The notes under the pieces are model-generated. The model saw only the letters and a program-made list of their open reading frames with translations, was not told where the DNA came from and made no database searches. Shown piece by piece: positions 19,051-25,410 of a stretch of 26,588 nucleotides of DNA. Position 1 is the first letter of the stretch. Every line of letters begins with the position of its first letter. Source of the stretch: a virus. A program made the position numbers and the translations under genes. The stretch is taken from the IMG/VR virus record IMGVR_UViG_3300047300_000183, positions 1-26,588 of that record. One strand, 5' to 3'.

Positions 19051-19209
19051 TTATTGAATTCTTGAGACTTGCTTTGCTAACAACCATTTGTCACCCAGCT
19101 TGAGTACTGATCTGACCCATTTGCGCTGATTGTGTTGGTTGACTTCTGTAGGGACTGCTTTGTTGTTGTAAAGCTGTCGTGCTTTGCGTCTTAGTTCTTG
19201 AGTGTTCAT
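19051..19209 (-). CDS. Small basic phage protein, 52 residues
   Basis: 52 residues: MNTQELRRKARQLYNNKAVP, then NQHNQRKWVRSVLKLGDKWL, ending AKQVSRIQ. Strongly basic, no cysteines or membrane helix. This pattern (helix, HNQRxWVRSV, LGDKWLLA) is one I associate with small conserved phage proteins near recombination genes. Its ATG overlaps the stop of the gene before it (ATGA), and its stop lies 6 bases before the ERF start. Nucleic-acid binding is plausible from its charge. Confidence 0.65.
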   Translation of the reverse strand: MNTQELRRKARQLYNNKAVPTEVNQHNQRKWVRSVLKLGDKWLLAKQVSRIQ

Positions 19210-19410: not shown

Positions 19411-19503
19411 TCAGCCTCTCCATGCGAGCATTACGCCAATGCCACCAAAGATGATGACTGCCAATGTCCACTCAACTAGCGTTTGAATAATATTACTTTT
19501 CAT
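19411..19503 (-). CDS. Tiny membrane protein, first gene of the leftward operon
   Basis: 30 residues: MKSNIIQTLVEWTLAVIIFG followed by GIGVMLAWRG. One membrane helix fills residues about 6-27. The SD AAGGAGAACCAA is excellent and the ORF starts directly after the conserved promoter and leader, so it should be the first translated product of the operon. Too short to assign; small early membrane peptides in phages often act on host membrane proteins. Confidence 0.6.
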   Translation of the reverse strand: MKSNIIQTLVEWTLAVIIFGGIGVMLAWRG

Positions 19504-19509
19504 TTGGTT

Positions 19510-19578
19510 CTCCTTAAAGACCCTTGCGAACTGCTTGGGCTGACTGAAGTATAGCAAAGAATCCACAGAATGTTTAAA
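19510..19578 (-). promoter_or_regulatory. Leftward early promoter with conserved leader hairpin (copy A)
   Basis: On the minus strand TTTAAACA (19578-19571) is followed by TTTGCTATACT, an extended -10 (hexamer 19553-19548), and a leader GTCAGCCCAAGCA (19544-19532), GTTCGCAAGGGT, CTTTAAGGAG. The leader can fold with CCC paired to GGG and an inner GC/GC pair. The same module appears at 22573-22640 on the plus strand. Confidence 0.75.
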
Positions 19579-19594
19579 TTATTTTCACGAAGTG

Positions 19595-19622
19595 TTGATT
19601 TTTTGCAAATTGTTGTTATGAT
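19595..19622 (+). promoter_or_regulatory. Rightward early promoter, extended -10, likely leaderless transcript
   Basis: TTGATT (19595-19600), 16-base spacer, TATGAT (19617-19622) preceded by TGt. The -10 ends 6 bases before the ATG at 19629 and no SD lies between, so the mRNA may start at the ATG, as lambda cI mRNA does from its maintenance promoter. Flanking TTGCA (19603-19607) and TGCAA (19622-19626) could be half-sites of an operator. Confidence 0.65.
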
Positions 19623-19628
19623 GCAACT

Positions 19629-19808
19629 ATGACAAAACAAGACGAAATCCAATCCGACAAGGAATTCATAACCTTATATGGTGGCAGTTCTGCTTTAGCT
19701 AAAAGGCTTGGCATATCTGTCCAACGAGTCCATAACTGGACGATCAGGGGAATTCCTGCATCAATGAAACTCAAGAACCCTAAGTTATTTTTAAAGAAGC
19801 GCAAATGA
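19629..19808 (+). CDS. Cro-like helix-turn-helix regulator
   Basis: 59 residues. TLYGGSSALAKRLGISVQRV followed by HNWTIRGIPASM is a Cro/YdaS-type HTH: helix 2 SALAKRLG, turn, recognition helix VQRVHNWTIRG, and the Ile-Pro typical of this group. It faces the leftward early operon across a 125-base control region, the usual place for a switch protein. It probably represses one or both divergent promoters. Its stop overlaps the start of a second regulator (ATGA). No SD is seen, see promoter at 19595. Confidence 0.8.
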   Translation: MTKQDEIQSDKEFITLYGGSSALAKRLGISVQRVHNWTIRGIPASMKLKNPKLFLKKRK

Positions 19809-22572: not shown

Positions 22573-22640
22573 TTTAAACACTTTGTTTAGTTTGCTATAC
22601 TCACGTCAGCCCAAGCAATTCGTGAGGGTACTTTTAAGGA
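22573..22640 (+). promoter_or_regulatory. Early promoter with conserved leader hairpin (copy B)
   Basis: TTTAAACA (22573-22580), TTTGCTATACT (extended -10, hexamer 22596-22601), GTCAGCCCAAGCA (22605-22617), ATTCGTGAGGGT, CTTTTAAGGA. It matches copy A at 19510-19578 along its whole length with small indels. GCCC (22609-22612) can pair with GGGT (22626-22629), making a hairpin at the 5' end of the mRNA close to the SD. Confidence 0.75.
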
Positions 22641-22647
22641 TTAAGTC

Positions 22648-22899
22648 ATGGAATACGAATTTGAAACAACTACTGGTGCTGGTGGCGAGACTGTGCAATG
22701 CGTCTTGGAATACGACATGGATGAGGAAGGCACTTATGCTGAGAATCTAAAGTCAATCAAGTATGAAGGCATTGATGTAACTTCTTTGCTGTCTGACGAG
22801 CAATTCATAGAAATAGAAATGACTGGCACGATGATGCTGTCTAGCCACTTGATTGCAGAAGCTGATATGGCAAAGATTGCTGAGTACGAGCGCAAATGA
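22648..22899 (+). CDS. Acidic protein, first gene of the accessory operon
   Basis: 83 residues, strongly acidic (many Glu and Asp), with EYEFETTTGAGGETVQCVLE, YDMDEEGTYAENLKSIKYEG and a C-terminal helix LIAEADMAKIAEYERK. The N-terminal half alternates as beta strands. It is not recognised. As the first gene after the conserved promoter and leader it should be made early and in quantity; small acidic early phage proteins often act as inhibitors or DNA mimics, but no evidence here shows that. Confidence 0.6.
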   Translation: MEYEFETTTGAGGETVQCVLEYDMDEEGTYAENLKSIKYEGIDVTSLLSDEQFIEIEMTGTMMLSSHLIAEADMAKIAEYERK

Positions 22900-25350: not shown

Positions 25351-25371
25351 AATCTAATTGAGTTGCCACTT

Positions 25372-25400
25372 TAGAGAGACCTTGTTCTCTCTATTTTTTT
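25372..25400 (+). terminator. Strong Rho-independent terminator
   Basis: TAGAGAGA (25372-25379), loop CCTTGT, TCTCTCTA (25386-25393): 8 perfect pairs followed by seven T. It ends the early accessory operon 22 bases after the Ref-like gene. Confidence 0.9.
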
Positions 25401-25410
25401 GTGGGATAAT
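25382..25410 (+). promoter_or_regulatory. Promoter overlapping the terminator
   Basis: TTGTTC (25382-25387), 17-base spacer, GATAAT (25405-25410) preceded by TGg, an extended -10. The -35 lies in the loop and right arm of the terminator, so the new unit starts near 25417 directly behind it. Confidence 0.55.

Follow-up and report, generated by a model that had tools for sequence, protein, structure and literature searches.

Why should two divergent early operons with unrelated first genes begin with nearly the same sequence, and which part of that sequence is being kept? The question was raised by the virus record IMGVR_UViG_3300047300_000183 (positions 1-26,588; this whole 26,588 nt stretch is called the window below), in which an initial annotation had described two similar promoter and leader regions. 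Both copies were present where they had been placed, with 85% identity over a 39-nt core between 19520-19558 (minus strand) and 22591-22629 (plus strand). The joint pattern matched twice in the window and never in 100 shuffles, and the pattern and a window-wide scan returned exactly two copies, with no others in the 26.6 kb. As had been claimed, the likeness breaks off ahead of the start codons (19503, minus; 22648, plus), and unrelated genes follow, one for a 30-aa membrane peptide on the left and one for an 83-aa protein on the right. The features of the region are collected in Table 1.

Table 1. Early promoters, leaders, first genes and flanking signals in the window
Feature	Position	Strand	Basis or remark
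Operator-like palindrome TAAACA-CTT-TGTTTA	22575..22589	.	Over the right-copy -35; read in sequence
Right-copy promoter TTTAAA, 17 nt, TATACT (extended -10 TGCTATACT)	22573..22601	+	-10 ends 6 nt before the conserved +1 A
Right-copy leader, predicted +1 A to Shine-Dalgarno AAGGA	22608..22640	+	Model R1, 57.2 bits, E 5e-16
Right 5'-terminal hairpin GCCC/GGGU, A-rich internal loop, GC/GU inner pairs, AAUUC loop	22609..22629	+	Folding, covariation
First gene of right operon, 83 aa, without family match	22648..22899	+	Same place in most relatives
Left-copy promoter TAAACA, 17 nt, TATACT	19548..19576	-	Sequence
Left-copy leader, predicted +1 A (19541) to AAGGA	19511..19541	-	Model R1, 50.8 bits, E 6e-14
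Left 5'-terminal hairpin GCCC/GGGU, GC/GC inner pairs, AGUUC loop	19520..19540	-	Folding
First gene of left operon, 30-aa membrane peptide; ERF recombinase and SSB genes follow	19411..19503	-	
Third early unit, without leader: YdaS/Cro-like regulator, predicted leaderless mRNA (TATGAT, 6 nt, ATG at 19629)	19595..19808	+	
Intrinsic terminator closing the right early operon	25372..25393	+	
Predicted late promoter TTGTTC, 17 nt, GATAAT with extended TG; overlaps the terminator	25382..25410	+	Sequence; layout same in relatives

The boundaries of the conserved block were the same in relatives. In 231 of 233 distinct contexts the block opened at an A placed 6-7 nt downstream of the -10 hexamer, whichever hexamer was present (TATACT, TACAAT, TACACT or TAGAAT), and it closed at the Shine-Dalgarno (SD) sequence. 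Because the A holds its position behind such varied hexamers, conservation begins at the predicted transcription start (+1), which is the first base of the leader. Right-hand leaders had 96% mean identity between genomes, against 54% at the third codon positions of the right operon's first conserved gene, in most cases the next one, and 42% in the stretch from -60 to -11. The identical 33-nt leader occurred in 21 combinations of promoter and first gene, drawn from seven promoter classes and 11 first-gene families; several gene families occurred behind left as well as right leaders. From these boundaries, the contrast in identity and the exchange of promoters and genes, it follows that the kept unit is the transcribed leader and not the promoter.

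Of the single promoter-plus-leader module that had been proposed, the leader is kept, whereas the promoter in front of an identical leader may belong to any of the seven classes. The upstream part of that module, TTTAAACA, is present in the window but is mostly a variable operator-like palindrome over the -35, unconserved in relatives. Palindromes such as TAAACA..TGTTTA and CAACA..TGTTG stand upstream of many copies in relatives. Comparison with relatives and a covariance model, the check suggested at the outset, recovered conservation from GTCAG to the SD with the first three bases alone varying: AG lies inside the leader, and GTC, constant in the two copies of the window, varies in relatives, so that GTCAG is only in part the start of the element. 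Most relatives (L241-L257) also carry palindromes of the type TAGGGAAAGTACCTA / TAGGTATAAACACCTA at about -60 to -40 of both early promoters; these are weak or absent in the window and, judged by sequence, are likely to be the site of a second regulator.

The leader (31-36 nt) was detected in more than 150 related phage contigs (at least that number, viral contigs having been scanned with three short patterns), and all 160 loci counted carry relatives of the early genes of this phage group. Copies per locus did not exceed two; 75 of the 160 loci had two, and in 74 of these the copies were divergent. The rule is simple: of two divergent early operons, each carries a single copy. At the one remaining two-copy locus (L179) the copies run in the same direction, 7.3 kb apart, perhaps through rearrangement or an assembly fault. 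With a covariance model, the pair was present in nearly all of 23 records of 26-37 kb, and both copies were found in 18 of 18 near-complete genomes read closely (the window and 17 others); these records had been chosen for at least one leader copy, from collections of uncultured contigs, many of them fragments. A second set of loci, chosen by the metallophosphoesterase gene only, was free of this selection bias: the left leader was present in all 21 loci reaching the group's regulator or the 30-aa membrane peptide, and the right leader in all 13 loci extending to the far side.

Between the copies, the 18 genomes encode a Cro/YdaS-like regulator, a winged-helix protein and a DUF1376 primosomal protein, usually with a nuclease and NinB or another gene. 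A TA...T hexamer lies exactly 6 nt before the ATG of the regulator in 18/18 genomes (window, L241-L257); its mRNA is therefore predicted to be leaderless, and thus only two of the three early units would carry the leader. The 30-aa membrane peptide (19411-19503, minus) is strongly conserved, and in most leader-bearing genomes its gene comes first or second in the left operon.

Searches against Rfam 15 gave no match at the gathering score over the window, and the right copy had none at E<=10. The leader was not matched in genome contigs, and no genome encoding the metallophosphoesterase turned up; since both searches were empty, no prophage or host was found. Annotated phage records searched by blastn gave no match to the leader, and the stretches read of the distant annotated relatives MW202462, MW202710 and MW202879 held no credible one. 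No phage leader of this kind was found described in the open-access literature, which is weak evidence of absence.

The hairpin spans +2 to about +22 of the predicted transcript. Each of the two leaders folds as A-GCCC-(internal loop)-GC-loop-GC/GU-(internal loop)-GGGU, after which come an unpaired U-rich stretch and AAGGA; this agrees with the CCC/GGG pairing and the inner GC/GC and GC/GT pairs pointed out earlier. In the short-type leaders, counted on an alignment of ungapped hairpins, all 132 pair cells were standard, and both inner pairs showed two-sided changes (GC, AU, GU; CG, AU). When the long types were included (45 distinct leaders), 97.7% of cells were paired and two-sided changes occurred in 5 of 8 pairs, on structure-guided alignments, which favour the model and were used because MAFFT on all leaders together misplaced the outer stem. 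None of 500 shuffles was as high in paired cells, in two-sided changes or in covariation score, and sliding the partner by 1-3 columns lowered pairing to 24-42%. The complementary strand paired in 83.0% of cells against the 97.7% of the sense strand, 52 of 305 cells were G-U pairs, and the arms were spaced by 13, 15 or 16 nt. Since the sense strand pairs better and arm spacing varies, the folded molecule is RNA and not a fixed DNA palindrome. At the outermost pair a wobble is kept, G.U in 42 of the 45 distinct leaders and A.C in the other 3; the stems are weak, at about -6 to -9 kcal/mol. Loops read AAUUC, AAAUC or AAAAC, and an A is conserved in the loop and in the internal loop. The SD, at about +29 to +33, is mostly unpaired (median 0.72), and the start codon follows at about +40. 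Left hairpins differ among genomes in stem length and loop, and left and right copies remain distinct from each other. With its RNA structure kept through compensatory change, the leader fits the dedicated early control element that had been proposed, and it is a structured phage leader absent from Rfam 15, bounded by the predicted +1 and the SD.

A sister clade shares the gene order of these phages but has another regulator, and no homologue of the 30-aa peptide was found in it; it has the leader at neither place. Most of its left operons (L265, L271, L274, L278, L281, L295, L308 and others) begin instead with an unrelated hairpin, GUGGG/CCCAC, at the predicted +1, for which covariation was weak (12 sequences); no hairpin was found in the left operons of L290 and L299, and the right operon has an AU-rich leader only, without hairpin. 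A hairpin of other sequence at the same left position makes the 5'-end hairpin a recurring, not a universal, solution, and the clade offers a natural comparison.

On balance we favour, with somewhat better than even confidence, a leader that acts as a 5'-terminal stem-loop joined to a strong ribosome-binding site, stabilising and boosting the two early mRNAs. Transcription would start at the conserved A, and the RNA from +2 to about +22 would fold into the small hairpin with its A-rich internal loop. A single unpaired 5' base would then remain, hindering 5'-end-dependent decay by RppH and then RNase E (which may not be the enzymes of this host), and the open U-rich and SD stretch would draw ribosomes. 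Both enzymes need single-stranded 5' ends and are hindered by 5'-terminal structure (PMC3997798); as one base is unpaired here, slowed decay can be inferred. Two features expected of such a protector were found in the sequences: the stem-loop lies within 1-2 nt of the 5' end (at +2 of the predicted start, in 231/233 copies), and it is conserved as RNA structure by covariation and strand comparison. The phages keep one copy per early operon and swap the promoters ahead and the genes behind. Among the three functions put forward by the initial annotation, which is partly supported as a whole, mRNA protection fits best, as an interpretation of structure and position; nothing was found pointing to host polymerase capture. 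Several observations sit uneasily with a protective role. The right leader is kept base by base, loops included, which is more than a mere protective stem needs; a wobble closing pair that frays easily is odd for a pure protector; the stems are weak; and the sister clade's right operon and a few of its left operons do without a hairpin.

Some of these points would suit a binding site for a trans-acting factor, whether a small RNA or an RNA-binding protein of phage or host, through which both early mRNAs would be switched jointly, for instance to shut off early translation. The near base-by-base constancy of the right copy, the conserved A residues, the kept wobble and the ceiling of two copies per locus agree with such a site, which we nevertheless regard as unlikely: no obvious phage protein of RNA-binding type lies behind the leader, the small basic 52-aa ORF of the left operon often lacks an arginine-rich start, stem length and loop differ among left hairpins, and the sister clade has another hairpin. 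The twin leader may also be a regulatory RNA of very small size whose binding to RNA polymerase, or to a specific factor, co-switches both early operons, with promoters and genes exchanged around a fixed socket, a proposal to which we give a low probability. Retention of the leader chiefly as a recombination joint for swapping promoter and gene modules would account for the free combination of promoter classes and gene families on an identical leader and for gene families shared by the two copies, but left and right copies stay distinct and recombination alone leaves the compensatory changes unexplained, which makes it very improbable. Equally remote is a stretch that works as DNA, as an operator or a start region governing promoter escape or pausing. 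It adjoins the promoter, and palindromic operators lie near many copies, but conservation runs from +1 into the SD; the operator reading was rejected on the G-U pairs, kept by RNA only, and on arm spacings unfit for a fixed dimer site.

The third function proposed was antitermination in cis, in which a put- or nut-like hairpin in the nascent RNA, by itself or together with a phage protein, binds RNA polymerase and carries it past terminators. We consider this quite improbable. Like putL and putR of HK022, the leader is structured, stands at the start of the left transcript and occurs in two copies on divergent early operons (18/18 genomes here). HK022 put RNA is, however, about 70 nt long with two stem-loops (PMC9378689), whereas the leader is far smaller, one 21-nt hairpin with coding from about +40. 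The fixed spacing between hairpin and SD is also unexplained by antitermination. Lambdoid nut sites likewise place a small hairpin on both early operons, with boxA upstream of a boxB hairpin that has a GNRA-like loop, and an arginine-rich N protein is encoded in the left operon. Some short left variants of the leader do carry TCTTTAA, which we take to be the boxA core, but the U-rich stretch is no constant boxA and lies 3' of the hairpin instead of 5', the loop is not GNRA-like, an internal loop is present, and no N-like arginine-rich protein appears to be conserved. The 52-aa ORF (19051-19209, minus; 16 of 18 genomes) was set aside as an N-like candidate: its arginine-rich start, present in the window, is missing from many relatives.

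A search of the left operon in all 18 genomes turned up no intrinsic terminator. On the right, a conserved terminator closes the operon in 16/16 genomes whose stretch reaches that far, and the late genes have their own predicted promoter (TTGTTC-17-GATAAT in the window) directly behind it. With no intrinsic terminator on the left and a predicted late promoter after the right one, antitermination would not be needed as far as intrinsic terminators go. Three genomes have putative terminators soon after the first gene on the right; these overlap with a short predicted ORF and were discounted. Beside the terminator and late promoter lies a conserved GTTGCCA motif (25362-25368), sometimes in a small hairpin; in all genomes reaching it, this group stands ahead of the gene preceding the terminase region.

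A large group of uncultured phages opens two early mRNAs with the same hairpin at the predicted 5' end, in a leader not catalogued before that most likely keeps the messages stable and well translated. The 33-nt leader is portable, having been combined in nature with seven promoter classes and many genes, and its effect on mRNA life and translation is directly measurable.

Two known leaders resemble the stabilising leader favoured here. That of T7 gene 10 has a 5' hairpin and is transcribed from a promoter of the phage's own polymerase, unlike the leader studied here. Like our leader, it is a phage leader with an enhancer-type stretch before a strong SD, as the g10 ribosome-binding site is described in PMC8748333; the likeness is one of description, not of alignment, and implies no common origin. 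The ompA and papA leaders of E. coli share a stem-loop at the extreme 5' end, a short single-stranded stretch and a ribosome-binding site. The phage leader differs from them in its A-rich internal loop and wobble closing pair and in a stabilising effect that is here deduced; it is also nearly invariant across many phages, present twice per genome, and detached from promoter and gene alike.
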